IMG/VR virus record: IMGVR_UViG_3300032285_000096
Location: 1 to 28,296 of that record
DNA: 28,296 nucleotides
Origin: a virus
Reading direction: 5' to 3' (one strand)
Every line of letters starts with the position of its first letter. The stretch's first letter is position 1. The notes under the pieces are model-generated. The model saw only the letters and a list, made by a program, of their open reading frames with translations. It was not told the origin of the DNA and did no database searches. Below are positions 1-23,598 of this stretch, in pieces. Made by a program: the position numbers and the translations under genes.

Positions 1-124
1 CGAACCACCATGCGGGTTCGGAAGGTGCTTGTAATTCGCGCTCCAACTGCCATGCTTTACCGCAGCGAATCCAAGATGTTAGCGATGAAAAACTTCTGTG
101 TGCTACTAATGTTTCTTTTTTCAT
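1..124 (-). CDS. N-terminal fragment of a probable PD-(D/E)XK (RecB/Cas4-like) nuclease, cut by the window edge
   Basis: Only the first 41 codons are inside the window, read from an ATG at 124 and open to the left edge. The peptide contains SFSSLTSWIRCGKAWQLER followed by PAWWF. I recognise this as the usual opening of phage RecB/Cas4-like PD-(D/E)XK nucleases: a Ser-rich strand, a Cys in place of the CP motif, an aromatic/Leu helix, then a double-Trp loop before the first catalytic His. The catalytic residues would lie outside the window. Such nucleases usually work in phage DNA recombination or replication. No clear Shine-Dalgarno precedes the ATG. It sits just after a terminator (141-171), so it probably begins a transcription unit separate from the late operon. 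The competing plus-strand frame here looks random. The call rests on motif likeness alone. Confidence 0.55.
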   Translation of the reverse strand, partial: MKKETLVAHRSFSSLTSWIRCGKAWQLERELQAPSEPAWWF

Positions 125-140
125 GGGATAACTGTAGCAC

Positions 141-171
141 AAGAACAAAGGCCCACCCCGTAGGGTGAGCC
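141..171 (-). terminator. Rho-independent terminator with UACG loop
   Basis: Read on the minus strand, GGCTCACCC, loop TACG and GGGTGGGCC form a 9-bp stem with one G-U pair. It is followed by TTTGTTCTTG. The UNCG tetraloop and T-rich tail fit an intrinsic terminator. It lies 25 bases before the nuclease start codon, so it would separate that gene from upstream transcription. Confidence 0.65.
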
Positions 172-217
172 CGTGTCCAGCACTCAAGTAGGTACTTAGG
201 TTTCCCTACTCCAGTTT

Positions 218-234
218 GTTAAGATTGTCTTAAC
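218..234. promoter_or_regulatory. Perfect inverted repeat, operator-like
   Basis: GTTAAGA-TTG-TCTTAAC is an exact 7+7 inverted repeat with a 3-base centre, in non-coding DNA between two terminators. The short centre makes a stable RNA hairpin less likely than a dimeric repressor site. A smaller palindrome, AAGTA-GG-TACTT, lies at 186-197. No regulator gene is visible in the window, so the binding protein is unknown. Confidence 0.4.
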
Positions 235-296
235 GCGTGAAGCATAACAGATGGTTGATTCCGACACGCCGAGACATGCGCTAATGTGGATTCAAC

Positions 297-326
297 TTGA
301 CAAGATTTTGCAACTGGGGTTAAAAT
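297..326 (+). promoter_or_regulatory. Sigma-70-like promoter on the plus strand
   Basis: A perfect -35 box TTGACA (297-302), an 18-base spacer and a -10 box TAAAAT (321-326, 5 of 6 matches) predict a start near 333. It faces right, against the entire gene-bearing strand, toward a hairpin at 353-371 and the terminator at 423-440. A chance match is possible, but it falls in the only long non-coding stretch of the window. Confidence 0.4.
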
Positions 327-352
327 ATGAGCGAAGCGAATTCAATTAACGG

Positions 353-371
353 GGGAGCCTTAAGGGCTCCC
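353..371. other. GC-rich hairpin without U-tract
   Basis: GGGAGCC (353-359) pairs with GGCTCCC (365-371) around a 5-base loop. Neither strand has a T-rich tail after it, so it is not a standard terminator. It would lie inside any transcript from the plus-strand promoter at 297-326, and just beyond the late-operon terminator on the minus strand. Confidence 0.4.
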
Positions 372-404
372 AATGGCGCGGCTATGGTGATAGCGCCTAA
401 TAGT

Positions 405-440
405 AAAACAAAAACAAAAAAAGCGCCCCCGAAGGGGCGC
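405..440 (-). terminator. Strong intrinsic terminator after the lysis genes
   Basis: On the minus strand GCGCCCC-TTCG-GGGGCGC (7-bp stem, UUCG tetraloop) is followed directly by seven Ts, then GTTTTTG and more Ts. This is a textbook Rho-independent terminator. It begins 24 bases after the holin stop codon and should end the late transcript. The plus-strand side has only a weak CTCTCTTGCTATT tail, so any bidirectional action would be weaker. Confidence 0.9.
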
Positions 441-463
441 CTCTCTTGCTATTAAATTATTGT

Positions 464-712
464 TTAGTTTTTAACTGACTCATCTGCTGCTACTAGAGCA
501 TGTGATGGTAGTGGGAATGTATCGCCTGGGTTTACATAGCGGTACACCAATGGCGCTAGTGCAGAGATACCTGCAGCACCAAGTGCTTTAAGTGATGTTG
601 TGTGGTGCATGATGTACTCAGTAAGGACTCCGCCTACAACTACATGGAACCATGCTGATGCTACTGTCCATACCTTTGGTGGTACGTTAATAAGATACTT
701 TTGCTTAGCCAT
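464..712 (-). CDS. Putative holin
   Basis: 82 residues. Two hydrophobic stretches, about residues 13-33 and 42-58, are separated by a short HH-containing linker. The sequence then continues with VYRYVNPGDTF and a polar tail. A 'P-x-x-Y-R-x-x-x-P-x-D-T' ending after the last membrane segment is common in small actinophage holins as I know them. Its start codon shares one base with the stop of the endolysin gene (TAATG) and GGAG lies six bases upstream. The role would be to permeabilise the membrane at the end of infection so that endolysin can act. The gene is the last of the late operon, 24 bases before a strong terminator. The holin call rests on size, hydrophobicity and adjacency to the endolysin. 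Confidence 0.75.
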   Translation of the reverse strand: MAKQKYLINVPPKVWTVASAWFHVVVGGVLTEYIMHHTTSLKALGAAGISALAPLVYRYVNPGDTFPLPSHALVAADESVKN

Positions 713-1209
713 TAATTACTCCATTTCGGTTTGCCGAAACCAACTACGAATACTGGCAAGTGTTTCTTATTGGTCGAACGGTATGCACGAATTCTCTTGC
801 ACACTTCTCCACCATTAGCCTGGCTTCCAGTTGGTTTAGTTTCGGGCACTGTGTTGCCTTCTACTGTAGTTATAGTACCATCACCGTTGTCTTGAATGAC
901 GATGCCGACATGCCCTACACCCTTACCATCAAAGGAAAAGAATACGATATCGCCAGGTGCTGGGGTGGCTGTCTCATGGTTAGCCCATCTGCCAAGGCCC
1001 TGGAATCCTGATACACCTGCTGGTGTATAGACGCAGTTGGGCATCTTCACTACTGGCTTAAGTTGTGCTGCACACCACATGACAAATGAACCGCACCATG
1101 GCTGTCCGTCGTGTCCTGTAAACTTACCATACTTTGTCTTGTTGTCTGGAACCTCAACAGTTCCAATCTCTTTCACAGCAATTGCTAAGAAATCTTGTGC
1201 TTGTGTCAC
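712..1209 (-). CDS. Endolysin, CHAP-type peptidoglycan amidase/endopeptidase
   Basis: 165 residues with a CHAP (NlpC/P60-fold) layout. The catalytic Cys is residue 39 in QPWCGSFVMWC, the catalytic His is residue 100 in GVGHVGIV, and the third polar residue lies in TVEGNT (117-120). PAPGDIVFF (84-91) is the usual strand before the His. The enzyme would cleave peptidoglycan peptide bonds or the amide link. No separate cell-wall-binding domain is obvious; the basic C-terminus may serve. No signal peptide is present, so export needs the holin. The start is GTG and overlaps the preceding stop by four bases (GTGA). The gene stands between the membrane/coiled-coil protein and the holin, a standard lysis cassette. 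Confidence 0.88.
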   Translation of the reverse strand: MTQAQDFLAIAVKEIGTVEVPDNKTKYGKFTGHDGQPWCGSFVMWCAAQLKPVVKMPNCVYTPAGVSGFQGLGRWANHETATPAPGDIVFFSFDGKGVGHVGIVIQDNGDGTITTVEGNTVPETKPTGSQANGGEVCKRIRAYRSTNKKHLPVFVVGFGKPKWSN

Positions 1210-1517
1210 TGCTCCGCCTTTGCTTTCATTACTTCAACATCTACTTTGATTACCTGTTGGTTATCCAGTAACTCTTCTACCTTATTGATGAGGCCAGTCT
1301 TGCCATCGTTGTAGAGTGCGTACTCGATACGAGTAGTGCGCTTATCCATTTCACCCATAAGGTCCATCAATGGCTTGAGTTCTGCTCTGAGTTCATTCAG
1401 ATGAGTCTCGACAGACTTATGTACGCCATGTTGAAACAGGCGCCATAAGCCTAAGCCAGTTGCTGCTACTACGAAAAAGAAGCCATAGATAGTATTGGAC
1501 CAATCAGGTAGAGTCAT
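1206..1517 (-). CDS. Small membrane protein with C-terminal coiled coil (lysis cassette)
   Basis: 103 residues. One hydrophobic segment (about residues 9-28, IYGFFFVVAATGLGLWRLF) is followed by a long charged, heptad-like helix (about 34-100). This resembles XhlA-like or DUF2746-like lysis accessory proteins, which sit at the membrane with a cytoplasmic coiled coil. It immediately precedes the endolysin and overlaps it by four bases, so a role in holin/endolysin function is likely. It could itself be a second holin or an antiholin. Its ATG is preceded only by a weak GGA, 19 bases after the upstream tail gene, so its level may depend on translation of that gene. Confidence 0.6.
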   Translation of the reverse strand: MTLPDWSNTIYGFFFVVAATGLGLWRLFQHGVHKSVETHLNELRAELKPLMDLMGEMDKRTTRIEYALYNDGKTGLINKVEELLDNQQVIKVDVEVMKAKAEQ

Positions 1518-1536
1518 TTGCGGTATTCCCTATGTG

Positions 1537-3753
1537 TTAGACGGTACGGAACTGGGCGATAAGCATTCCACCAAAGCCCTTGAAGCGACGCTCAGGTGGA
1601 GTCATGCGGATAAAGGTAATGCTTTCAATAACTCCACGAATAGTTTCGTTATTGGTAAAGTCCTGCAAGATGACAACATCTCCATTGGACTCAACTGTTT
1701 CAAGGCTAGAGACACGTTCAGATGCACGGCCTTCATAGCCAGTGGTCATGTTGTATCTGTCACCTTCAAAGTCATAACACATAAGTGGAAGGGTGATGAT
1801 GCGCTGACGGCGTACCGCAGGCAAGGCCTTTAACTGGTAGCCGTTAAATGAATCTTCTGTGCCTACTGTCTGCCCTGCTGATGGGTAGAGTGTGAAGCGT
1901 AGGGCGATAGATTCCTTTGGTGTCAAGTCAAACTGGTCAAGGCCAGTGATGTCCTGAGTAAAGTCAAAGTTGTTATCTACTGTAATGATATCTGCAGCAG
2001 CACCGTTAGCATCAACTGATGTCAACTTCAACTTGCCCACCATTGGCAGGGTCTGACGTAACTTAACCAACTCAAAGTGCTTATCTTCAAGGGTGAAGTA
2101 ACGAATCTGTCCTGTCTGTAGGTAGCCAGATGTAACGAGTGTGTTGTTCTGGAAGTAGATACCAGTGGCTGCTGAACCAATTGCCAACTTGTTTGTTGAA
2201 CCAATCATGCAGACTGCAGATGCTTCGTTAGTTGTAGGAATCTGTAGGTGTGTTGCATAACCCATCTGGTTAGGTGCAATTTCCTTGCTCAAGTCAATCT
2301 TGACTAGGCCAGATTTCATTGTGCCGTCACCGTCTGAGTCAATGTAATTTGTGACTGTGCAGTATGCATAACGGTCATTGAATGTGATGGACTTACATGG
2401 CTGACCTGTCAGGGTCAAGCCTGAAGCGGGGTCATAGCCGTTGGTAACTACAGTCAATGGACCATAAGTAATGTAACCAGATGATACGAAGCCTGATGTA
2501 TCAATGGTGCCTACGCGGATACCTTTGTTGGTACCAAAGACCATGTACTTGCCAATGTATGAACCAATGGCATAAATCAATTCACCCTTTGGCATATCGG
2601 CTGCAGTAACTGCCTTGGTTAGGAGTGGGACTGCACCATTTGTATCGAGGGAAAGACGATACACAGTTGATGAATCCCCTGCATAGCCCGCTGTATAAAT
2701 AGCATTTGGACCTTCGCAAATACCAGTCCACTTCCATGTTGTGTTTGGATGAGCATAAATGGGAAGGTTATTGTTAGATGCAAGGACTGCAGTACCTGTC
2801 ATACCAGTTGCATACTGTTGGTCTGTATAGTTGTGGTAGTAAGAAAACTCTGTAGCAGATGGGACTGCAGTTACTGAGAAGGTACCGTTGAATCCAGAAC
2901 TGATAGAAGCAACTGTTACTTGACTACCTACTGCAAAGTTGTGTGCTGTAGAAGTCTTGAGCGTGGCTACGTTGTTTGCCAACTGACCAGCAACTACTGT
3001 GTAAGAAGTAATTGGAGTTACTTCAAAGATGTAGTTATTAACTCCAGCAATAAGGCGTTGCTTGACCCAAGATAGGGCTACGTTGGTAACTGTACCTACT
3101 GCTGCTGGGTGGGTAAATACTGATGTGCCTGATGTTGCACCTGTCAGTGGACCCTTGTAGATACCAGTTGCATTTGCTGCGTAGTAGTTAACGCCATCTT
3201 GCGCAAGGGCTAAGATAGTTCCAGAGCCACCCCATGTAAGAGTAGTCGTAGCATTGGCTGCAGTAGTGCGGTAAAGGTTTGCACCATCTGACCAGATAAC
3301 TACATCTACTCCAGCAGTATCTGTACCGCCAACCATAATCGGTCCGTTAGATGCAGTATGTACTCTAGTTACATCTGGTAGTAGTGTTACTCTACCTACG
3401 TTAAATACTTCTACACCAGCAGACTTGTTAAAGCGGGCTGATACTGTTTGTCCTGATATTGGTTCTTCGTAACGGATACCAGCGCCATAGTCAAAGGTAG
3501 ACTGGCTGCGTAGCCACCAACCTGTAAGTGTCTGCTCGCCTGGTTCCTTCTGTTGGTCAATCTGCTGCTTACGATATTGCGCTGTCTCACGCTTGTAAGG
3601 GTACTGTTGGTTAGGCCCAATGAAGAATGGTAGCCCTGCTACTGCAACGTCATAGTTGTTGCTAGTATTTTCAAATGTATTACCTGAGTTAGATGGTTGT
3701 CCAATTGGTACAACTGGCCTCTCGGCAATATGTGCGTAACCGTCTAGTGCCAC
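1537..3753 (-). CDS. Large tail protein with propeller-like repeats (possible tail tube/nozzle component)
   Basis: 738 residues, rich in Gly, Thr and short beta strands. Repeated WSDGANLYRTT / DGVNYYAANATGIYK / GPNAIYTAGYAG / GSYIGKYMVFGTNKGIRV units look like beta-propeller blades. Around residues 262-330 there is an Ig-like insert with TAHNFAVGSQVTVASIS and FNGTFSVTAVPSATEFSY, a motif I know from many phage tail proteins. In short-tailed phages a protein of this size near the end of the tail genes is usually the tail tube B/nozzle protein; that assignment is inference. The start is GTG with AAGGAG five bases upstream. A strong terminator (3763-3794) stands immediately upstream, so the gene is probably expressed by readthrough. 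It is the last structural gene before lysis. Confidence 0.65.
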   Translation of the reverse strand: MALDGYAHIAERPVVPIGQPSNSGNTFENTSNNYDVAVAGLPFFIGPNQQYPYKRETAQYRKQQIDQQKEPGEQTLTGWWLRSQSTFDYGAGIRYEEPISGQTVSARFNKSAGVEVFNVGRVTLLPDVTRVHTASNGPIMVGGTDTAGVDVVIWSDGANLYRTTAANATTTLTWGGSGTILALAQDGVNYYAANATGIYKGPLTGATSGTSVFTHPAAVGTVTNVALSWVKQRLIAGVNNYIFEVTPITSYTVVAGQLANNVATLKTSTAHNFAVGSQVTVASISSGFNGTFSVTAVPSATEFSYYHNYTDQQYATGMTGTAVLASNNNLPIYAHPNTTWKWTGICEGPNAIYTAGYAGDSSTVYRLSLDTNGAVPLLTKAVTAADMPKGELIYAIGSYIGKYMVFGTNKGIRVGTIDTSGFVSSGYITYGPLTVVTNGYDPASGLTLTGQPCKSITFNDRYAYCTVTNYIDSDGDGTMKSGLVKIDLSKEIAPNQMGYATHLQIPTTNEASAVCMIGSTNKLAIGSAATGIYFQNNTLVTSGYLQTGQIRYFTLEDKHFELVKLRQTLPMVGKLKLTSVDANGAAADIITVDNNFDFTQDITGLDQFDLTPKESIALRFTLYPSAGQTVGTEDSFNGYQLKALPAVRRQRIITLPLMCYDFEGDRYNMTTGYEGRASERVSSLETVESNGDVVILQDFTNNETIRGVIESITFIRMTPPERRFKGFGGMLIAQFRTV

Positions 3754-3880: not shown

Positions 3881-4111
3881 TTAGTTAAGCGCAGCGATTT
3901 CGTCTGCTGTTAAACCGAGTGCTGCTAACTTAGCCTCGGCTGAAGCCTTTGCTTCTGCCTTAGCCGCTGCAATAGCATCTTCCTCAGACTTGCGAGTAGC
4001 GGCTTCAATCGCTGCTAGTTCACGTTGCTGGATTTCTTCAGCAGTTAGTGGGCGCTCTGTTACTTCACCTGTAGCGCAGTTAATCTCAACTGCTGTAAGT
4101 GCTTCTGACAT
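3881..4111 (-). CDS. Small Ala/Glu-rich protein, tail region
   Basis: 76 residues from the ATG at 4111, chosen because AAGGAG lies eight bases upstream. An in-frame ATG at 4159 would add 16 residues and overlaps the previous stop (TAATG) but has no Shine-Dalgarno. The N-terminus EALTAVEINCATGEVTERP is followed by LTAEEI, then an Ala/Glu/Lys helix (about 29-65), then LGLTADEIAALN. Short 'INCATGE..ERPLT.EEI' proteins occur near phage tail-fibre genes in my experience and may be fibre-assembly or attachment factors, but no function is established here. It is the last gene before the internal terminator apart from a possible 26-codon ORF. Confidence 0.7.
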   Translation of the reverse strand: MSEALTAVEINCATGEVTERPLTAEEIQQRELAAIEAATRKSEEDAIAAAKAEAKASAEAKLAALGLTADEIAALN

Positions 4112-4158
4112 TGTTGTTTCTCCTTGGTTAGTTGAGGTATTGCGTTTGAATAGACCCA

Positions 4159-4671
4159 TTACGAATTCTTAATTCCGTATAGGGAAAAGGATGAATACTG
4201 CAATAAAGTTCCTTGCGACATAGTTAAAGTAATAGAAGTAATGGCCGAAGTACTACTCCATAGTTCGGCAATTAAAGTTTGCAAGGCAGCAGTTCCGTTA
4301 TTTTCAGTTACTCCATCAATAGCAATAGATTTGTAATTACTGCTTGCATAATTTGGAATATAAAATTCAATGTTGCTAAAGGTATTAGAAGTTGCCGCAG
4401 CATTTGTAGCATATCCAGATGACCCACCAAGATTTCCGCTACCAGCACCAGAACCAATACCATACAAAGTTATATCTGAGGAAAGATTGGAACCACCGTT
4501 AAATGCTAAAGAAAAAGTTGTCCAAGGATTTGTAGTTGAAAAATTACATCTTCCAGATATGACAATTTTTAAGTCTGTATAAGTTCCTGATATAGATGAA
4601 AAAGTCCAGGAAGCCTCACCACCTGAAGCAGTAGTATGACTAGCAATTAATACTTGTGTTGGGTTAGCCAT
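4159..4671 (-). CDS. Tail/receptor-binding domain paralog 1
   Basis: 170 residues making up one copy of a domain that occurs six times in this region. Hallmarks are an opening strand (ASWTFSSISGTYTDLKIVIS), a central Gly/Ser-rich loop, 'NYASSNYKSIAIDG', 'AELWSSTSAITSITL' and a C-terminal 'SSFSLYGIKNS'. It has no signal peptide or membrane segment. The all-beta, Ser/Thr/Gly-rich composition and the position among fibre genes suggest a carbohydrate- or receptor-binding jelly-roll-like fold; this is inference. It starts two bases after the stop of the neighbouring paralog. It is the most divergent copy at the N-terminus and lies farthest downstream in the array. Confidence 0.7.
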   Translation of the reverse strand: MANPTQVLIASHTTASGGEASWTFSSISGTYTDLKIVISGRCNFSTTNPWTTFSLAFNGGSNLSSDITLYGIGSGAGSGNLGGSSGYATNAAATSNTFSNIEFYIPNYASSNYKSIAIDGVTENNGTAALQTLIAELWSSTSAITSITLTMSQGTLLQYSSFSLYGIKNS

Positions 4672-4673
4672 AA

Positions 4674-5195
4674 TTACGCCGCCTTAATTCCGTATAGAGT
4701 GTAAGTATTACCGATTGCAATTGAATTTGTTGTAGGAGCATAAATATCAATGCGTGTAATTGGCGAAGTTGAACGATATAAATAACTAATAAGTCCTACG
4801 TATGGATAAGTAACACTTTCTTGATGAACTATTCCAGATTTGTAAATTGATGATGATGAATAATTCATAATATCAACGCTGTTAAAAGCATAAGTACTTG
4901 TATTAACTTCTGAACCAAAATACCAAGCGTTAGCATTTGAACTGCGAGATGAAGATGCAGTTGAACCATCTCCGCTTAAAATAGTACGAGAGTAAAGTGT
5001 ACTACCTGAAGTATCATTATTAAATCTAAGCATTTCATAATAGTTAGAATCATTTACTGAAGCAACTAATCTTAATCCAGTATAAGTTTGTGGAATAGAA
5101 TTAAAAGTTACTTGGCTTTGAGTAGTTGTTGCTGTGTATGTTGCAATAGGCACCATTGTTGAACCAGCATTAGCGGTTGATGTAGTTACTCCCAT
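4674..5195 (-). CDS. Tail/receptor-binding domain paralog 2
   Basis: 173 residues, one full domain copy. The MGVTTST start, 'VTFNSIPQTYTGLRLVASV', 'IMNYSSSSIYKSGI', 'YLYRSTSPITRIDIY' and the ending 'NTYTLYGIKAA' place it in a subtype with the 6505-7026 gene, which shares start, length and ending. The other copies have 'GLWQST' or 'ELWSST' where this subtype has 'YRST' or 'WRST'. The gene begins one base after the stop codon of the upstream 435-residue gene, so translation is probably coupled. The likely role is a component of, or adaptor in, the host-recognition apparatus, inferred from context. Confidence 0.7.
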   Translation of the reverse strand: MGVTTSTANAGSTMVPIATYTATTTQSQVTFNSIPQTYTGLRLVASVNDSNYYEMLRFNNDTSGSTLYSRTILSGDGSTASSSRSSNANAWYFGSEVNTSTYAFNSVDIMNYSSSSIYKSGIVHQESVTYPYVGLISYLYRSTSPITRIDIYAPTTNSIAIGNTYTLYGIKAA

Positions 5196-5196
5196 A

Positions 5197-6504
5197 TTAG
5201 TTTACTCCGTAAAGTTCAAAGGTTGAGTACTGGGTAAAACTTTTTGCACTATTAGGTGTTAAAGTAATTGAAGTTACAGCAGCAGTAGATTGCCATAATC
5301 CTGAAATAAGTTCTACTGCACCTGAACCATTAGCATCGTATCCATCAAGCGCCCTAAGAGTTTTATATTTATTAGTATTAGAATAATCAGTAATTGATGT
5401 AATATTTGGTGCAAATACATTGGAAATTGCTGGTACTCCCATATCCCAATATAAGCCTAATGAAGCACGGGAAGTTGAAGCAGAACCACCAGCAGCAGAA
5501 CCACTACCATATAGGAAGTGAAGTGCATAATTGTTTCCTGTATCGCCATTAAGTTGCATAAGTATTGCTTCGGCTCCAGTATTTATTTGTGCGTTGCAAC
5601 GAAGTTCTAGATGCTTGTATCCTTGCGGAATATTACTAAAGGTAACACTAGAAGCACCACTAGCATCAACAGTTGCAGTAGCAATAGCAACAAAGTCACC
5701 AGCAACGGTAACGCTGTTAGATGCAGAACTTGCAGTACCTGGGCCATAAGCAAAGTTATATGGCTTGACGGTAAAGGTGTAGGCAGTACCTGTTGTTAAA
5801 CCAGTTACGGTTAGCGGTGAGGTTGTGCCTGTTGCTGTCAATCCGCCTGGGCTTGATGTGGCTACGTAGTAACTTGCATCAGTTCCTGAGTAGGTAAACG
5901 GTACGTTAGCCGAAGTGTTACCTGATGAGTAGGCAGTACCGATTGTGGTTGTACCTGCTGGGGCTGCGGTTGCAGGTTGGTTGGAGATGCCGTACAACTC
6001 AAAGGTTGAGTACTGGACAGCATTTTGTCCACCAAAATAAATTGTTATTGAAGTAATAGGGGCAGTGTTATTCCAAATGCCAGCATCAAAACCTGCATTA
6101 GCAGAAGTTGAATTATCTTCGCCTACCCAATCGCTTGACAATGGCTTGTAATTAGAATTTGTATAATTTGGAATAGTGTAGTTAAAAGATGAAAAAGTAT
6201 TAGCAGTATTACCAGCAGTGTCTAATCCGCCATAACCATTTAATGGCATAAAAGTTGCAGTTGAATTACTGCTTGAACTTGCAGCGCTTCCATTGCCAGA
6301 AATCCAAAGAGCAGGATAAGCATTTGCACTTGAATCTCCGTTAAAACGAATAAATGCACCAGCATTATTTGCTGTTGCGTTATCGCTTCTAAAAGAACCT
6401 TTAATAATTAAATCAGTATAAGTTTGATTAACATTGCTAAAAGTCACAGATGCAACGCCGCCAGCACCTACGGTATAGGAATCAAGTAATTTGTAAGTTG
6501 CCAT
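5197..6504 (-). CDS. Two-domain tail protein: two paralogous domains joined by an FN3-like linker
   Basis: 435 residues. Residues about 1-172 form one copy of the repeated domain ('VTFSNVNQTYTDLIIKGSF' ... 'STFELYGISN'). Residues about 175-265 look like a fibronectin type III or Ig-like module ('GTTSPLTVTGLTTGTAYTF', 'VKPYN'). Residues about 267-435 are a second copy ('VTFSNIPQGYKHLELRCNA' ... 'STFELYGVN'). The second copy is closest to the 188-residue gene at 7027-7593 ('YKHLQIR', 'SGLWQST'). A fusion of two receptor-binding-like domains on a flexible FN3 linker would suit a branched or elongated fibre tip. The start codon lies directly after the stop of the upstream paralog (TAAATG). Confidence 0.72.
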   Translation of the reverse strand: MATYKLLDSYTVGAGGVASVTFSNVNQTYTDLIIKGSFRSDNATANNAGAFIRFNGDSSANAYPALWISGNGSAASSSSNSTATFMPLNGYGGLDTAGNTANTFSSFNYTIPNYTNSNYKPLSSDWVGEDNSTSANAGFDAGIWNNTAPITSITIYFGGQNAVQYSTFELYGISNQPATAAPAGTTTIGTAYSSGNTSANVPFTYSGTDASYYVATSSPGGLTATGTTSPLTVTGLTTGTAYTFTVKPYNFAYGPGTASSASNSVTVAGDFVAIATATVDASGASSVTFSNIPQGYKHLELRCNAQINTGAEAILMQLNGDTGNNYALHFLYGSGSAAGGSASTSRASLGLYWDMGVPAISNVFAPNITSITDYSNTNKYKTLRALDGYDANGSGAVELISGLWQSTAAVTSITLTPNSAKSFTQYSTFELYGVN

Positions 6505-7026
6505 TTAAGCCGCCTTAATGCCGTAGAGGGTGAAAGTAGAGCCTGCCAAAAGGTTATATCCATTTGAGTTAAATACTTGAATTGTATTTATTGCAGCAGT
6601 TGAGCGCCATAAGTAAATATTTGCTTGAACTGTGTTAGCGGTTGTGTTTCCGTTTCTGTCTATAAATGTTTTATACACAGAAGTATTAGAGTAATTCATA
6701 AATTGTGTTACTGAATTTGCTACAAGATTTGTAGATGAGTTTGCTGTATTTGCATAGGTTTGACTTGTTTCTCTAAAAGAAGCAATTGCAGAGCCAGTAC
6801 CATACACGCAAGTTCTTGAATAATTACTTCCAGTATCAACTGTTCCATTGCCTACTCTAATAGTAAACGGTCCTGCTGTTGATGTTCCAAAATTAGATAC
6901 AAGAATTAAATCAGTATAAGTAGTTGGAATGGAAGTAAATGTATATGAAGTAGTTGCGCTAGGTATTGTATAAGTAGCAATAGCAGTATAAGTGCTGGCA
7001 GAACCAGTAGTTGTAGTTACGCCCAT
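6505..7026 (-). CDS. Tail/receptor-binding domain paralog 4
   Basis: 173 residues, the same length as the 4674-5195 copy and the same subtype: start MGVTTTTGSAS, 'YTFTSIPTTYTDLILVSNF', 'FMNYSNTSVYKTFIDR', 'YLWRSTAAINTIQVF', ending 'STFTLYGIKAA'. The stop and start with its neighbours are adjacent (TAAATG), so it is translated in series with the other paralogs. The loops between conserved strands differ strongly from the other copies, which is expected if they contact variable receptors. Function is inferred from location and composition only. Confidence 0.7.
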   Translation of the reverse strand: MGVTTTTGSASTYTAIATYTIPSATTSYTFTSIPTTYTDLILVSNFGTSTAGPFTIRVGNGTVDTGSNYSRTCVYGTGSAIASFRETSQTYANTANSSTNLVANSVTQFMNYSNTSVYKTFIDRNGNTTANTVQANIYLWRSTAAINTIQVFNSNGYNLLAGSTFTLYGIKAA

Positions 7027-7593
7027 TTAGTTTGCTCCGTAAAGTGCGAATTTGCTGTATTGATTATAGTTAGAACCATTGCCAAAAATTTTAATAGTAT
7101 TAATTGCTGAAGTAGATTGCCATAGACCTGAAGCAAGTTCTATAAATTGACCATCTGCTCCACCATTGGTATCAAAACCGTTTAAGGCTCTTACAGTTTT
7201 GTATTTGTTTGTGTTAGCATAATCTAAAATATCTATAACACCTGAACCAAAGTAATTGCCTGAACCTAATCCACCTCCTGACATAACTATTGCACTATAA
7301 CTTGAACCAGGCAAAGCAGAACCGCCAGCGGCCGAACCAGTACCATAGAGATTATGACCGTAATAGTCAGCACCAGTTGTATCTGAATTAAATTGAATTT
7401 TTTGATACGTATTGCTAGTATTATTAGCAATAAATCTAATTTGCAAATGCTTATATGTACTTGGAATAGATGAAAAAGTAATGCTTGATGCACCAGCAGC
7501 ATCTACCGTAGCCGTAGCAATCTGATAGAAGTCAGTTGAGTAAGAGTATAGATGCCCGCTAATCTGCGAGGATAAAATACCAGGAAGTATCAT
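7027..7593 (-). CDS. Tail/receptor-binding domain paralog 5 with PGI-type N-terminus
   Basis: 188 residues. It begins MILPGILSSQISGHL, a short segment I have seen at the N-terminus of phage fibre proteins and a plausible virion-anchoring peptide. It then carries one copy of the repeated domain: 'SSITFSSIPSTYKHLQIRF', 'LYGTGSAAGGS', 'ILDYANTNKYKTVRALNG', 'ASGLWQSTSAINTIKIF', 'SKFALYGAN'. It is the first copy transcribed and the only one with the PGI segment, so it may be the base of the array. Its ATG shares a base with the preceding stop (TAATG). The receptor-binding role is inferred. Confidence 0.72.
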   Translation of the reverse strand: MILPGILSSQISGHLYSYSTDFYQIATATVDAAGASSITFSSIPSTYKHLQIRFIANNTSNTYQKIQFNSDTTGADYYGHNLYGTGSAAGGSALPGSSYSAIVMSGGGLGSGNYFGSGVIDILDYANTNKYKTVRALNGFDTNGGADGQFIELASGLWQSTSAINTIKIFGNGSNYNQYSKFALYGAN

Positions 7594-7952
7594 TAGGCTA
7601 AGTCTCCCAACACTAGCCAGTTATTGGCTGAGGTTTGGATAGCAGTAGCACCTGAATACTGTACGCGAGTCTTTGGGGTAGCAGCAGTTCCACCTGTTGA
7701 TGTAACTGTTACTCCGCTTGCTCCCGACAAAGTAACCTGTCCTGCTCCTGTTTGGGCGAAGTTAAGAATCGCACCGACAGGTAGCGCCACAGAAGCATTA
7801 GTTGGAATTGTTACTGCGATAGCGGAAGCATTAGCCAAGGTAACAAGTGTGTTGTTTCCATCGGCTAGCGTAAAGGTATATGTGGTTCCTGTCTGTGCAT
7901 TGACAGCAAGAACTGGTGTGACAGCAGTATTAGTTAATAGTGTTACAGCCAT
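7593..7952 (-). CDS. Small fibre-associated protein, stand-alone version of the 8266-8991 C-terminal domain
   Basis: 119 residues. From residue 18 it reads VNAQTGTTYTFTLADGNNTL ... 'GAGQVTLSGASGVTVTSTGG' ... 'RVQYSGATAI' ... 'WLVLGDLA'. This parallels residues 149-241 of the 241-residue protein at 8266-8991, including the same GDLA ending, so the two share a domain by duplication. The motif is common at the C-termini of phage fibre proteins and probably forms a small beta-rich trimeric cap or adhesion domain; this is inference. It is joined to both neighbours by TAATG overlaps. Confidence 0.7.
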   Translation of the reverse strand: MAVTLLTNTAVTPVLAVNAQTGTTYTFTLADGNNTLVTLANASAIAVTIPTNASVALPVGAILNFAQTGAGQVTLSGASGVTVTSTGGTAATPKTRVQYSGATAIQTSANNWLVLGDLA

Positions 7953-8266
7953 TAGAGTGTTACTCCTGTCGCAGTGAAGTCTGTGTTTCCTGTTGTTGAA
8001 TAAACCTTTAGGATGTCACCACTGGCTAGCGTCCAACCTGGAGTCTCCTGCAAGGAGCCATTGGCACCTAGAGTTAAGTCGTAGTATTGGTAGTAAGCAG
8101 AGCCACCTGACTTGGTGATTGATACTCGGATAGCATCGTTGGTTCCGCCCTTATTGCAGGCGGTAAATGATGAGATGATTGAACCGTTAGTTGAACCTGT
8201 AACCAGTGTGGTTAAGGTTGTAACTGAAGGGGTTGCTTGTCCTAGGACTACGTATGCTGTTGCCAT
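7952..8266 (-). CDS. Small tail-associated beta protein, function unknown
   Basis: 104 residues, Ser/Thr/Gly-rich. The pattern 'VLGQATPSVTTLTTLVTGST', 'SFTACNKGGTNDAIRVSITK', 'QYYDLTLGANGSLQETPGW', 'SGDILKVYSTTGNTDFTATG' resembles small single-domain beta-sandwich proteins coded beside phage tail fibres. No catalytic motif, membrane segment or coiled coil is visible. It is linked by one-base stop/start overlaps to fibre genes on both sides, so equal production with them is likely. It may be a fibre-to-tail adaptor or decoration protein, but I have no direct evidence. Confidence 0.62.
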   Translation of the reverse strand: MATAYVVLGQATPSVTTLTTLVTGSTNGSIISSFTACNKGGTNDAIRVSITKSGGSAYYQYYDLTLGANGSLQETPGWTLASGDILKVYSTTGNTDFTATGVTL

Positions 8267-8991
8267 TACGCTAAGTCTCCAATCAACTGGAATGTATTAG
8301 AAGCGGTACAGAGGATTGTTGCTGCGCTATATTGAGTACGTAGTTTGGTACCAGTGCCAGTTACGGTTACTCCCGTATCTCCAGCAACAGTTACTTGACC
8401 TGCTCCAATTGCTTGGATGTTTACGTATTGCCCTGCACTGTAAGTGCTTGCTGGGACTGTTACTGTAATTGGGTTAGCGTTATACAGGGTAACCATCTTG
8501 TCTTGGTCTGTTGCTACCAGTGTATAGGTAGTTCCAGTTTGAGCATTGATTCCAAGAGTTGTCTTTGGAGTAGCAATAGTTGGAGTGTTAATGGTTGGTG
8601 TGGTAAGAGTTTTATTTGAAAGAGTTTGAGTATCCGTTGTACCTACAATGTTGCCAGTTAGTCCGTGTACTGGGCCAGTGGCAAAGATATGGTCAGAGAA
8701 GTCCGTTGCATCCTGAGCAATAAGTACGTGGCGTACTACAGCGCCAGCATTGTGAGATGCTGCCGATGTGCCGTTATAGCCACGAGTAATGTTTAGCGTG
8801 CTACCTGAAGCATTTGTAACAAGTACCAATTCCTCGGAGGCTGTATTGTAATCAAGGGCAACTACGTATGGGTAGGTGCTTGGAAAGCCAACTGGTGCTG
8901 CTGACAAAACAACTGTTGTTGAAGTGCTGTTAATAAAAGAGTTAACAGTGTTGTCAACCGCATTGGCGGAGTAGTAGCGTTTGGTTGCCAT
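8266..8991 (-). CDS. Tail fibre protein
   Basis: 241 residues in three parts. Residues about 22-90 are an N-terminal module ('VALDYNTASEELVLVTN', 'ITRGYNGTSAASHNAG') that resembles residues 27-96 of the upstream connector protein. Residues about 118-143 are the TDTQTLSNKTLTTPTINTPT segment, a well-known beta-helical or shaft motif of phage tail fibres. Residues about 149-241 form a C-terminal domain duplicated as the separate 119-residue protein downstream. The start ATG has AAGGA six bases upstream. The N-terminal module probably docks on the virion and the C-terminal domain forms the tip; both are inferences from order and known fibre design. Confidence 0.8.
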   Translation of the reverse strand: MATKRYYSANAVDNTVNSFINSTSTTVVLSAAPVGFPSTYPYVVALDYNTASEELVLVTNASGSTLNITRGYNGTSAASHNAGAVVRHVLIAQDATDFSDHIFATGPVHGLTGNIVGTTDTQTLSNKTLTTPTINTPTIATPKTTLGINAQTGTTYTLVATDQDKMVTLYNANPITVTVPASTYSAGQYVNIQAIGAGQVTVAGDTGVTVTGTGTKLRTQYSAATILCTASNTFQLIGDLA

Positions 8992-9000
8992 TGGCCGTCC

Positions 9001-9891
9001 TTAAGAGGTGTAGTGGGTACGAGGAGGGAATTGTTCTTGCAGGCGACGTACTTCTACAAGTAGACGTTGCTGGTACATTTGTTGCAATACTCTGCCGATG
9101 TTTACTGCAGAGCCGATTGGGTCATTGCCTTGCTGTGCATCTGCTTCAGCAGTAGCAGCAGGGACACGTCCAAGGTCAAGGTACATTGCTGTACGGTATG
9201 CAGCACCAAGAATAATTACTTCTCGTGCTGAGTCTGGCAAGCCAGTCATTGTGAAATCATCTGTATCGTATTGAAGCACTGATGGCTTCTTGGTGTAGGT
9301 AACCATAACTGGACGTCCAGGGATGATACCTTCACGAATAGATACTGTTTTACCTGAGTTCCAGTAAACTGGGTTAGCCATACGGTCTACACGGTAGTGA
9401 CGGACTGGTAACCATTCTTTAGATGGACCAATGGTTTGCCAAGAGCAACCTAGAATATCAATTGCTTCTTGTGGAAGTTGATATGTAGTACGGGCTGCTT
9501 GCCAGTTAAAAGTTGTGTAATAGGTACCGAACAAGTCTGGGTAAACACCATCAATAGCAAGGTTTAGATTGCGTCGGATAACGCTACGCGGAAAGGAAGG
9601 CGCGATAGTTACACGAGTACCAGCAGTGTGACTTGTTGCTACCGTGTCACGAAAACCTCTGCCATATGCAGGGATAGTTGCCGTATTAGATGTGCGGTCA
9701 AACTTGTCTACCCAGATTAGTTCGTCGTCAATTTCTACTAGACCACGAGTTAGTACTGTTCCATCTGCTACAACAAAGGTTAAGTCTGTTGCAGTCATAG
9801 GAGAAGTCAGGTACGTAGCCTGGTCCTGGCGGTTAGTGTAACCAGTCAGGGCTAGGTTAGTTTCGTTGATTAAGTCAATGAATGTTGCCAT
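9001..9891 (-). CDS. Head-tail connector or tail tube A-like structural protein
   Basis: 296 residues. The N-terminus (MATFIDLINETNLALTGYTN) is followed by a beta module (27-96) with EIDDELIWVD and AYGRGFRDTVATSHTAGTRV. Then comes a segment 'FPRSVIRRNLNLAIDGVYPD' (99-119) and a C-terminal helical part with 'PDSAREVIILGAAYRTAMYLD'. Proteins of this length and style, coded between head and fibre genes of short-tailed actinophages, are usually adaptors that close the portal and build the upper tail; T7 gp11 is the functional analogue I have in mind. No enzyme motif is visible. The ATG shares a base with the upstream stop. Confidence 0.6.
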   Translation of the reverse strand: MATFIDLINETNLALTGYTNRQDQATYLTSPMTATDLTFVVADGTVLTRGLVEIDDELIWVDKFDRTSNTATIPAYGRGFRDTVATSHTAGTRVTIAPSFPRSVIRRNLNLAIDGVYPDLFGTYYTTFNWQAARTTYQLPQEAIDILGCSWQTIGPSKEWLPVRHYRVDRMANPVYWNSGKTVSIREGIIPGRPVMVTYTKKPSVLQYDTDDFTMTGLPDSAREVIILGAAYRTAMYLDLGRVPAATAEADAQQGNDPIGSAVNIGRVLQQMYQQRLLVEVRRLQEQFPPRTHYTS

Positions 9892-12049: not shown

Positions 12050-13626
<1,577 letters not shown>

Positions 13627-19014: not shown

Positions 19015-22000
19015 TTATCCTAACCTTGCAAACACGGAATTAACCACTGTATTTAAGCGGCCATCTTGACTTACTCTGTCCTTGAGATAATTAGTCCAAG
19101 CATCCTTTTCAGCCTTAACGGCTTCTGAAGCACCTGCTGCTCTGTATTGAACTACTGCTGAGTTATGTTCAACCCAGTCATTCATCAATCCCTTGATAGC
19201 ATCTGCTTGCTCGCCAGTAGGTATTTTTACTGGCTTGCCTTGAGAATCTTTACCAGAAAACATTTGTTGGAAATCAGCCATCGCTTGTTCTGCTAGGTGA
19301 GTCTTCTTTGTTGAAGAATAATCATCCCACCAAATAGGGTTTGACTGGCCGTAAGCATTAACGAATGCACTCCATTGAGCACGCTCTGCTTGCTGTGATT
19401 GACCAGCATCTGCTAAAGTCTTCATTGCCTTATCGTGTTCTGCACGTTGAGCAGCGATAAAGTTATTACCAGCGGCTGTATAGTATGAAGCCAAGAAAGA
19501 CTCTGGAGTCTTATTAGCACGCAAGTGCATCTTAATAACTTCATCGTGGATAGCCTGAGCATCACCTGAAAGACTTGGAGTTTGAGGTACTAAGAATGCT
19601 GCACCTACAGCCTGTGGGCTGTATAGCAAGTCCTTGTTACTTTCAATCCAGTTTATGGCTTCGTTTGTATAAGGCATTGTGGCGCCAGGAACGGCACCTT
19701 CAGAACGGGCTACTGTGTATGAGATAGCGCCTGTTCCGTGCTCAGTAATAAACTTATCAATTGCTTCTGGGTAAGTCATTAACTTGCCAGTTGCAGGAGA
19801 TACAGTCTTTAATAATTTGTAGAACTCATCACGTAAGCCTGGGTCCTCTTGACTTACTGCAGGAGATAGTGGGCTGATTGCTCCGACTAGCGCCTTCATA
19901 ATCATAATTGATTTAGCGTTATTCTTAATGCGGTCAATAAATGCTTGTTTTTCAATTGGTGAAGCATCTGCAGCAGGAACCTTACCGTGGTATCCAGCAG
20001 ATGCTAGAGCAGCAATAGTTGCATTGAAGAATGAAGACTCTGTTTCCTTAGCATCTATTGCGTGATACACAGTACGAGCAATAGCGTTTGGCATTAGTTG
20101 GTCAAACATACTCTTAGAGAATCCAGCACCACCAGTAATCTTTTTGATTTCACGGTCTAGTGTTGGGTCAATTGCTCCAAGTGTATTGGCCGCTATTGAT
20201 ACGAAAGGTGAGATTCCAGGAACGTTCATTTCTGGAAGAACAGTTTTTAGAGATTCAAGGTTTCCAGTTACATTTACTGGTAGTCCACCAACTACTGGCA
20301 TTCCAAGTGCGCTTGCAGCGTTTAGGAATGAAGCACCCAACTCTCCAATGAGAGGAAGTGTGATGTGCTTTGCGCCAGATGAATCTGTTTCAACGAATCC
20401 TGGGTTGTTAATACCTTGTTGGATAAGTTGGAACTTACGGAAAGCCTCTGGGTTAGTAGCAATTAATGAACCAGCACGACGCATAGCCTGCTCTTGAGCA
20501 AAGTAGAATGGCAAGTAGTTACGAGCCAATACTGCAAACTGTGTTTTTAGCGCAGTGTTGTGAATTTGAGGAACCATTGCATAAGATGCACGAGTCATAG
20601 CAATACGAGTTGCTTCTTCTTCGCTAATGAAACCCTTGTCTAGTGCGTACTGAAGGCTTTTCATTTCATTCTTAACGTGGTTAAAGAATAGAGGTTGGCG
20701 AGATAGGTTGTTGATGATTGGGTCAATAACCTTCTCAAAGCCAAAGTTAGTAATGCGCTGTGTTAGATTTGGACCAGGCATCCACTCATAGTCTTGACCA
20801 GCAACAGCCTTTGGACGATATGATTCTTCAAGAGATTTAATTTTGTCAAGAGGAATCTTCTTGCCTTTAGCAATGTCTTCCATAAACTTAAGGTTTACTG
20901 TATCTGCGGTGTCACCTGTAAATAAGTTACGCATAATATCCATACGACGAGCAGAGAATGATTCTGGAGTTTCATTAACATATCCAGCCATTGTCTTGCG
21001 CTCATCAGCGTATGGGTCAAACTTGACAGGCTTACCCATTTTTGTTGGGCTAGCCTCATCATATTCAACTTTGCGAATACGTGCTTCGTCCTTTAGACGA
21101 GCAACTTCCCAAGCCTCATCGGCTGTAGCACCATTCTTTAATTCAGCAAGTGCGTCAGCAACAATAGTCTTGCGAGATTCAGTTGTAGCAGACTTTGATA
21201 ATTCAACGTGGTAGTTAAGGTCAAACTTTGGGTTAGACTTTTCAAAGTGTGAATATTCGCCAGTCTTTACTGGAATGCGACGCTTTGAATTTTGTCCCAT
21301 TATATCTGTAAGTTGACGATAAAATTCTTTTTGCTCTGCAGGAATGCCGTAACCTGTAAAGGTTGCACCTGAAGCCATATGTCCGCGAGTAGCAATAGCA
21401 ATACGAGCAGCCAAATCTAAATCTTCTTCAGAGGCTAACTTATTTAATCCCTTGGCAACAGTCTTACGTATCTTCTTACCAGATACATCTGCTGCAGCAT
21501 TAGCAAGGTACTCTGCTGGGTCTGTTCCATTATGAACAGCGTGAAGCGCATTTTCAATGATTGCTTCATCTTCGCCAGCGGCAAGTTTATAGTTCATCTT
21601 TGCAGCAGCGCCAGCAACTTTGGACTTAGCAATATCCATAGAGCCAAAACGAAATATTGCTGGAATCATTTCAGATGCAGCAATACGTAAACCAAAACCA
21701 CCAGTTAAAAGAGCCAGAGGCTTAAAGATACCATCGGTATAACGAGCAGCAAAGTCATCAATACGGCCATATAGTTTGCCGTATGTACCTAAGTCGCGCA
21801 TAGCGCCTTTAACTACACGAAAGTCTGGCATAGAAAACATACCGCGTTGGTCTAAGAAAGCACCTTGAGTAGTTGTGCGTCCATTAAGTGCTACCTGAGA
21901 AGCACCTTCGTTTGATACATAGCCTGGGCCATAGTCGGTTGACTTAAGAGAACGGTGAACCATTTGGGCTGACTTATCCATAATAGTTTTTGCAAATTCT

Positions 22001-23598
22001 TCATCATTAGGTAAGCCAGCAGCCTTAAACATTTCAGAAATAAGACTTGAATAAACATCTTTTTTCTCACCTAAATTGCCAAGCATAAATTCCGTAGTCT
22101 TTTGACGAGCCATTTGGTCTGACAATGAGAAGCGTGCAATACGATAAATAGATACAGCAGACGCTGGGTCAGATGGGTCAAACTTGGTATTAGAAAGTTC
22201 TAGTGTTTTGCTATCAATTGTGTATGGTAGATAGCCAGAGAAGGTACGAGTCTTGCCAGCAATGGCAGACTTCCAAGCATCTCCACTAAATGGACGTAGT
22301 GCAACTGGAAGAATTGTTTGCATTTGTCCAGTTTTGACAACTTGACCTGCTTCATCAATAACTAATTGCTCTGCCTTACGAGGCAAGAAGAAATTTGCTT
22401 GATTTCCGCGTAGGTATAGTTCATCATTAGCATCCCATTGACGCAACTTATCTGCAGCCTTGGAAGCAGCAGCACGAAGTACAGTTCTATTAGGAACCAT
22501 TGAAGCACCGTTGATTGAGAAGTTCTTCATCATCTCAGTATCGTGAGTTGTAGACAAGAAAACTTTGTGTAAATCATCGGTTGTTACTTTGCCTAATGGC
22601 TTTGTAAAGTATTGAACCATACCTTGTAGGCCAGGATACTTTAGAGCAACATCCATAGATGCTAACTCTGGAGTCTTGGCTTCATTAAGAATGTTCTTGA
22701 TGTCTTCTAGTGCACGAACATAACGCTTACCGCTATTACCAGTTAAAACATCACCAAGGCTTGGGTTCTTTCCAGCCTGATATAGTGAGTCTAGTTGGTC
22801 TGGTGAGTAAATCTTTAGGCTGTTACGCTCAAAGAAACCTTGTGTCGCAGCGCCAAGGCTACGAAATGGGCCCTTGAGGGTAGTAATTACTTTGCCATCT
22901 TCAGTCGTTAGGTACTTACCTTGCTGAATGGATGAGCGTGCTTTGAATCCTACGTTAAGTGGGTCAAAGTTAAAGTCAAATGCTATGTCAGCAGTGCCAG
23001 AGATAACTTTACCTAAACCTTTATCGGTATTACGTAAGTCACCCATACCTGGAACTTGTGAAAGAGCATTAGCAAAATCGCGGCCAAATGAAACTTTGTA
23101 ATTTGCGTTGTTAGAGTCGTTAACAGAATCTCTAAATGAAGAACCGAAGCGAGTCAAGAGATTGCGCTCAATAGATGCGGCAATGTCTGCTCCAGCAACG
23201 GCTCCTTCTGGGCCTAGTAGTGAGCCAATTGCTCCACCACCTACGACACCAGCGGTTGCCATAAAACCATTAAATATACCGTGACGTGCATATACAGAGT
23301 GAATGAACTTATAGTCACGTTGAACTTCTTGTAGAGGCTTTGCAAGCCAAGCAAGGCTATTTGTTACAACTTTTGCGGCGCCACCAAATACACGTTGCCA
23401 TATATTTTCAGAACCATTTTCTGCTTGGTGGTCCTGAAGTGATTGTTGTAAAGCCATACCGTTTGATGCGTGAGAAAGCGCAGTAGCAGCAGAACCTGGG
23501 TCTGACGAGTTAAGTGCATCGCCAACAAGTGCTGGAGAGTTAACTAGGTGTGGATTGTCAGCAAGTGTTTGGTTAAGATTATTAACACTACCTGCCAT
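19015..23598 (-). CDS. Very large (1527-residue) probable internal virion/ejection protein
   Basis: The longest gene in the window. Near the N-terminus lies a Gly/Ala-rich hydrophobic stretch (about 109-141, 'GFMATAGVVGGGAIGSLLG'), suited to membrane insertion. Long charged helical regions follow. Around residue 1024 is 'ARNYLPFYFAQEQAMRRAGS', then 'GFVETDSSGAKHITLPLIGE'; I know comparable 'PF-x-FAQ-x-Q-x-x-RR' segments from large proteins of actinophage structural clusters. No lysozyme, transglycosylase or polymerase motif is evident to me. Position between portal and scaffold and length (compare T7 gp16, about 1300 residues) favour a protein stored in the head and ejected with DNA; this is inference. 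The ATG overlaps the previous stop by one base. Confidence 0.65.
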   Translation of the reverse strand: MAGSVNNLNQTLADNPHLVNSPALVGDALNSSDPGSAATALSHASNGMALQQSLQDHQAENGSENIWQRVFGGAAKVVTNSLAWLAKPLQEVQRDYKFIHSVYARHGIFNGFMATAGVVGGGAIGSLLGPEGAVAGADIAASIERNLLTRFGSSFRDSVNDSNNANYKVSFGRDFANALSQVPGMGDLRNTDKGLGKVISGTADIAFDFNFDPLNVGFKARSSIQQGKYLTTEDGKVITTLKGPFRSLGAATQGFFERNSLKIYSPDQLDSLYQAGKNPSLGDVLTGNSGKRYVRALEDIKNILNEAKTPELASMDVALKYPGLQGMVQYFTKPLGKVTTDDLHKVFLSTTHDTEMMKNFSINGASMVPNRTVLRAAASKAADKLRQWDANDELYLRGNQANFFLPRKAEQLVIDEAGQVVKTGQMQTILPVALRPFSGDAWKSAIAGKTRTFSGYLPYTIDSKTLELSNTKFDPSDPASAVSIYRIARFSLSDQMARQKTTEFMLGNLGEKKDVYSSLISEMFKAAGLPNDEEFAKTIMDKSAQMVHRSLKSTDYGPGYVSNEGASQVALNGRTTTQGAFLDQRGMFSMPDFRVVKGAMRDLGTYGKLYGRIDDFAARYTDGIFKPLALLTGGFGLRIAASEMIPAIFRFGSMDIAKSKVAGAAAKMNYKLAAGEDEAIIENALHAVHNGTDPAEYLANAAADVSGKKIRKTVAKGLNKLASEEDLDLAARIAIATRGHMASGATFTGYGIPAEQKEFYRQLTDIMGQNSKRRIPVKTGEYSHFEKSNPKFDLNYHVELSKSATTESRKTIVADALAELKNGATADEAWEVARLKDEARIRKVEYDEASPTKMGKPVKFDPYADERKTMAGYVNETPESFSARRMDIMRNLFTGDTADTVNLKFMEDIAKGKKIPLDKIKSLEESYRPKAVAGQDYEWMPGPNLTQRITNFGFEKVIDPIINNLSRQPLFFNHVKNEMKSLQYALDKGFISEEEATRIAMTRASYAMVPQIHNTALKTQFAVLARNYLPFYFAQEQAMRRAGSLIATNPEAFRKFQLIQQGINNPGFVETDSSGAKHITLPLIGELGASFLNAASALGMPVVGGLPVNVTGNLESLKTVLPEMNVPGISPFVSIAANTLGAIDPTLDREIKKITGGAGFSKSMFDQLMPNAIARTVYHAIDAKETESSFFNATIAALASAGYHGKVPAADASPIEKQAFIDRIKNNAKSIMIMKALVGAISPLSPAVSQEDPGLRDEFYKLLKTVSPATGKLMTYPEAIDKFITEHGTGAISYTVARSEGAVPGATMPYTNEAINWIESNKDLLYSPQAVGAAFLVPQTPSLSGDAQAIHDEVIKMHLRANKTPESFLASYYTAAGNNFIAAQRAEHDKAMKTLADAGQSQQAERAQWSAFVNAYGQSNPIWWDDYSSTKKTHLAEQAMADFQQMFSGKDSQGKPVKIPTGEQADAIKGLMNDWVEHNSAVVQYRAAGASEAVKAEKDAWTNYLKDRVSQDGRLNTVVNSVFARLG

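Follow-up and report, generated by a model that had tools for sequence, protein, structure and literature searches.

To our knowledge, the receptor-binding tips of phages are mostly homotrimers. In the long tail fibre of phage T4 (gp34-gp37), several consecutive fibre genes contribute to one recognition structure. A 1:1:1 heterotrimer has been described for the virophage DSLV2, in which three consecutive related tail proteins assemble and bind host-surface material (PMC12724248, 2025). The cultured phages E7 and F5 (OX376640, OX376641) infect freshwater Ca. Nanopelagicales. Their 5-kb variable island, a metagenomic recruitment island close to the tail fibre, holds 'three proteins encoding DUF2541' as well as tail-fibre and collagen-like genes, and a role in host recognition has been proposed (PMC10202952). 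Here we analyzed a 28.3-kb record of a lake virus of bacteria (the window, i.e. the whole stretch of DNA under study) that contains an array of paralogous genes. The array comprises two copies of a conserved three-gene cassette, the triad, and we consider it probable that each triad encodes a 1:1:1 heterotrimeric receptor-binding head. We favor this reading because the genes form a fixed 1-2-3 set in which a single chain is anchored and the chains lacking an anchor can bear tips, and because the start codons look coupled and the chains are predicted to pack jointly.

The array consists of five minus-strand ORFs, across which a domain of ~170 residues occurs in six homologous copies. Four ORFs carry one domain each (4159-4671, 4674-5195, 6505-7026, and 7027-7593), and the fifth (5197-6504) encodes a 435-aa protein with two domains and an FN3-like linker. 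All 15 domain pairs scored 11-46 standard deviations above 200 shuffles, with identities of 29-51%, and the 7027 protein, searched against the window, matched at exactly six places, confirming the six copies in five adjacent genes that a first-pass annotation had reported. The closest pair was the 7027 protein and the C-terminal half of the 5197 protein (50% identity), followed by 6505, which paired with 4674 at 41%, and the N-terminal half of 5197, which paired with 4159 at 40%; all remaining pairs shared 29-37%. Because of these pairings the repeat unit is a triplet and, judged by sequence comparison, the array holds a triad of three subtypes twice, transcribed in the order 1-2-3-(FN3-like)-1-2-3. 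The two alternating subtypes of the first-pass annotation thus become three.

In the first triad, chain 1 (gamma, 7027-7593) bears the anchor peptide MILPGILSSQISGHL at its N-terminus ahead of the domain, chain 2 (beta, 6505-7026) has no anchor and begins its domain ~10 residues past the methionine, and chain 3 (alpha, 5977-6504) is the N-terminal domain of the 435-aa protein. An FN3-like linker (5701-5976; Pfam fn3 E = 0.0028, below the curated cut-off) connects it to chain 1 of the second triad (gamma, 5197-5700), the C-terminal domain of the same protein, which lacks an anchor of its own and is held via the fusion. Chain 2 (beta, 4674-5195) and chain 3 (alpha, 4159-4671) of the second triad were assigned by domain comparison. 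Pfam and PHROG profile scans of the domain returned no family above the cut-off and no tail-fibre family match. Within positions 4001-8000, the GC content falls to 36-41% over the array, against some 45% in the surrounding sequence, in keeping with an acquired island.

IMG/VR was searched with queries from each of the three subtypes, and subtype 1 was also run against genome contigs. Because the beta protein alone had no matches in viral contigs, a beta alignment served as the query instead. Merging overlaps left 204 distinct loci. Complete arrays read 123 in 137 cases, 123123 in nine, and 123123123 in one, such that every complete array, by strong matches, held 3, 6 or 9 copies in the order 123. 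A further 32 triads or double triads lay close to where the stored stretch ends; the remaining loci were truncated there or had an extra weak or split match. The window agrees with the family in its adjacent paralogues ordered 1-2-3 and its multiple-of-three copy number. Most relatives carry a single triad, so what had been called a six-copy expansion is better described as a conserved unit present twice in the window, as two unrelated triads. In a 90-row maximum-likelihood tree, the three positions formed exact clades of 30, 30 and 30 rows (SH-aLRT 98/100/99), in place of the two subtypes expected, and in a larger unsupervised FastTree, 89/90, 90/91, and 86/86 sequences fell into the clade of their own position. 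Gene conversion among chains was ruled out, as subtypes were no more similar within one locus than between loci.

The family also has outlying members. One locus (L318, 5359-10104) contains three complete consecutive triads with an anchor on each chain 1. Divergent triads in L018 (7051-9060) and L333 (7453-9034, from an Acidimicrobiaceae MAG) consist of three genes with poor subtype fit, the middle one scoring as subtype 1, and Streptomyces phage Microdon (L168) has one distant copy of the domain. Weak single-domain matches near triads (L083, 6922-7407; L252, 9543-10016; L311, 13121-13585; L322, 9064-9564) sit in longer ORFs of 243-265 aa and are possibly distant single-chain relatives.

Chain anatomy differs by position. 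N-terminal extensions were confined to chain 1, where they comprised a short anchor (e.g. MPILGIxASQISGHL), a longer one (MAISRxSTSS...LWDG), or fibre N-termini with FN3 domains, whereas the domain of chains 2 and 3 mostly starts within about ten residues of the methionine. The window follows this pattern in that gamma1 is anchored and gamma2 is fused instead. C-terminal extensions were found on chain 3 in 24 cases, on chain 2 in 13, and on chain 1 in one; Gly_rich_2 domains at this end belonged mainly to chain 3, with further cases on chain 2 and one on chain 1. The window chains have no glycine-rich tip. Here, and in relative L053, which has the same alpha-FN3-gamma fusion, the extension of chain 3 is FN3 plus the next chain 1 rather than a glycine-rich domain. 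A TAATG stop/start overlap occurred at 106 of 204 junctions between chains 2 and 3 and at 50 of 207 between chains 1 and 2, which suggests coupled translation. Since chains 1, 2 and 3 of the first window triad lie in one reading frame with single TAA codons between them, stop-codon read-through fusing the chains was considered and rejected: only eight other loci were in-frame, and the junction types seen most frequently are short overlaps or gaps that shift the frame.

These features bear on two other ways of using the genes. Chains 1, 2 and 3 could each be homotrimeric and stacked from proximal to distal on one fibre, with gene order reflecting position as in T4; the anchor on the first gene, the C-terminal extensions commonest on the last, and the fixed gene order would all fit, and the chain3-FN3-chain1 fusion of the window is compatible with stacked homotrimers and with heterotrimers alike. 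We nevertheless regard such stacking as unlikely, because the tips of chain 2 would need to exit mid-stack, and one fold for all three domains with equally short N-termini on chains 2 and 3 suits side-by-side packing. Alternatively, the tandem genes could encode separate homotrimeric receptor-binding proteins, each with a specificity of its own. The high divergence of the chains and their location in a hypervariable island speak for such a multi-specific array, as do stand-alone glycine-rich proteins adjoining the array of E7; it is nonetheless quite improbable given that neither chain 2 nor chain 3 has an anchor, copy number changes in threes and never by one, and the three deep clades keep a fixed order with no conversion. 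The first-pass annotation had left multi-specific and heteromeric recognition side by side, and the fixed 1-2-3 order, the single anchor per set, the tips, the joint fold, and the variable island favor the heteromeric option. Its host-recognition proposal thus stands in heteromeric form, while its expansion and pair duplication do not.

Structure prediction gave related evidence. AlphaFold2 modeled chain 1 alone as a confident 11-strand beta domain (beta-sandwich; pLDDT 85.7, pTM 0.81). Chains 1, 2 and 3 of the first triad (5977-7593) were then submitted as one 539-residue chain with TAA read as glycine, and this read-through construct, whose alignment was shallow for chain 3 (9 rows), reached a pTM of 0.82 and a pLDDT of 81.2. 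By our own estimate, a pTM of ~0.4 would be expected for three domains with unsettled relative placement. The model supports a confident, specific joint packing of the three chains, as distinct from a stoichiometry or geometry; under the stacked-homotrimer alternative this packing could in principle be end-to-end. A viral protein of 391 residues aligned with the joint model across 415 columns (TM 0.59, normalized to the length of the viral protein), which hints that a comparable packing of two domains exists within a single chain. For the fold of chain 1, no PDB structure matched at E ≤ 0.001; galectin and jelly-roll lectins were weak matches (TM about 0.27-0.38 on query length, Foldseek E 0.01-0.05), and GlmU in a PDB sequence search (E about 0.01) was taken as chance. 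Among predicted viral proteins there were 115 matches at E ≤ 0.001, several of them phage proteins annotated as tail fibre, FN3, glycine-rich or collagen. Mean-field DCA carried no usable signal on contacts between chains, as its intra-domain positive control correlated at only 0.12-0.14, and the mirror-tree correlation was low (about 0.25). Neither unrelated folds nor relatives with these genes as fixed single-copy components of unrelated sequence were found. In chain 1, mean entropy was equal in strands and loops, with variability peaks at residues 53-68 and 93-113, which qualifies the earlier description of divergent loops between conserved strands.

Chains appear to have been exchanged singly between viruses. 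Triads within one array were not closer than unrelated triads, and between-subtype identity within one locus did not exceed that between loci. The two window triads were no more similar to each other than to triads of other phages (beta pair 37%, rank 188 of 193), which, with the three subtypes, contradicts the previously suggested duplication of a pair. Arrays were therefore stacked from separate triads, without recent local duplication. In a set of 193 triads, at least one chain was ≥65% identical in 33 pairs, and 31 of these shared that chain alone. For example, L075 and L060 have upstream flanks 98% identical and chain 1 at 94%, with chains 2 and 3 at 47% and 45%; L248 and L261 share chain 2 at 97%, with the other chains near 50%. 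Several pairs had both flanks 87-97% identical and most of the triad unalignable, and L049, which holds a single triad, matched the window at 90% over positions 1-3744 and not at the triads.

Putative endonuclease genes occupy some of these junctions. In relatives, HNH_3 ORFs were located at the 1-2 junction in nine cases, at the 2-3 junction in five plus L049 (coordinates within the 2-3 gap), and at the 3-1 junction in one. Other array-linked copies comprised one in L018 and three directly after an array (L228 counted), compared with two elsewhere in 1,724 kb. Because the profiles derive from junction copies, these numbers exclude other HNH families elsewhere. All four junction ORFs of relatives that were tested exceeded the curated cut-off of HNH_3 (PF13392). 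No HNH_3 ORF was seen in the gene junctions of the window itself, and most arrays lack an endonuclease gene. We propose chain-wise exchange on the basis of the single-chain mosaicism and the junction endonucleases, the latter suggesting that homing drives it. A purely structural or decorating role, in which the triad is a conserved tail component and its variability reflects host-independent turnover or selfish spread of homing endonucleases, would draw on the facts that receptor binding is here a prediction from context and that homing endonucleases can cause turnover without benefit. It is very unlikely, as triads are replaced while their flanks remain 94-98% identical, chains are fused to glycine-rich tip-type domains and fibre N-termini, and most arrays have no endonuclease gene.

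The neighborhood of the array, also on the minus strand, is that of a tail. A tail-fibre-type protein adjoins it (7593-7952; PHROG minor tail/tail fibre module), followed by a tail-fibre base protein (8266-8991; PHROG tail fibre), syntenic with a 559-aa tail-fibre gene of phage E7, and a structural protein upstream of the fibre genes (9001-9891; phrog_7578), syntenic with a 305-aa protein in E7. The 119-aa protein at 7593-7952 is similar to the C-terminal module of the fibre protein at 8266-8991 (241 aa), with PHROG matches in common. Farther along the minus strand, a collagen-like protein (12050-13285; Pfam Collagen) has two Gly-X-Y blocks separated by a non-collagen insert of ~130 residues that looks C1q/TNF-like by eye, and a 1527-aa protein (19015-23598) lies within the virion gene region. 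The terminase was most similar to those of the cultured Planktophila phages E7 and F5 and of Streptomyces phages. E7 (LanE43AprE7) has one triad, and its locus (L167, 5669-7402) includes two glycine-rich genes with a chain-1-type N-terminal anchor; stand-alone glycine-rich proteins in triad loci likewise have anchors similar to that of chain 1. Judging by synteny and count, the three 'DUF2541' genes of E7 are apparently its triad; a Pfam-A scan found no DUF2541 match for the window or E7 proteins. Receptor binding by the triad is predicted from this context, because no family library names the domain, and from the island proposal for E7 (PMC10202952).

In the heterotrimeric model, three paralogous beta-sandwich chains would assemble 1:1:1 into a pseudo-threefold head at the phage tail fibre. 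Chain 1 would attach the head to the virion by its N-terminal anchor or, as in the second window triad, by an upstream fusion. The anchorless chains 2 and 3 would rely on chain 1, and in some relatives would present glycine-rich C-terminal tips. In the window, two heads would be joined in series through the chain3-FN3-chain1 fusion. With every chain encoded by its own gene, recombination at gene junctions could replace single chains independently, and HNH homing endonuclease genes lie at those junctions in several relatives. We infer the geometry and stoichiometry of the trimer, homing as the driver, and an effect on host range. More tentatively, junction HNH enzymes might promote replacement of one chain of the heterotrimer during co-infection, so that freshwater actinophages mix three repertoires. 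If so, new specificities would arise from chain mixing, sometimes with two or three whole heads stacked. A widespread heterotrimeric head with singly exchanged chains would give phages that are believed to infect abundant freshwater Actinobacteria a further, combinatorial way of changing host range. Cultured phage E7 offers a direct test system.

Parallels with described systems are partial. For E7 and F5, the main text (PMC10202952) describes neither a triad of orthologous classes nor a heteromer. A literature search, with most subscription journals outside its coverage, found no heterotrimeric tailed-phage tip of this kind. The tripartite tail of DSLV2 resembles the triad in keeping three consecutive related fibre genes as a set, and its heterotrimer is a precedent in principle, by analogy, with a different fold: DSLV2 has a T4 gp37-tip-like needle in a virophage, whereas the window domain is no such needle and the triad encodes compact beta-sandwich domains of 11 strands in tailed actinophage-type contigs. 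Triads also differ from DSLV2 in forming arrays of up to three, exchanging single chains, and carrying junction endonucleases. The T4 long tail fibre differs in that its segments are mostly homotrimeric and are not equal-sized paralogues. Gly_rich_2 fibre tips likewise have a glycine-rich C-terminal domain, which in triads is optional on chains 3 and 2; such triad tips are presumably comparable to T-even-like gp38 adhesins. Free-standing HNH homing endonucleases of phages are, as in triad relatives, intergenic HNH_3 genes at the edges of exchanged genes, but those of triads recur in the junctions of a putative receptor-binding cassette, where they may home.
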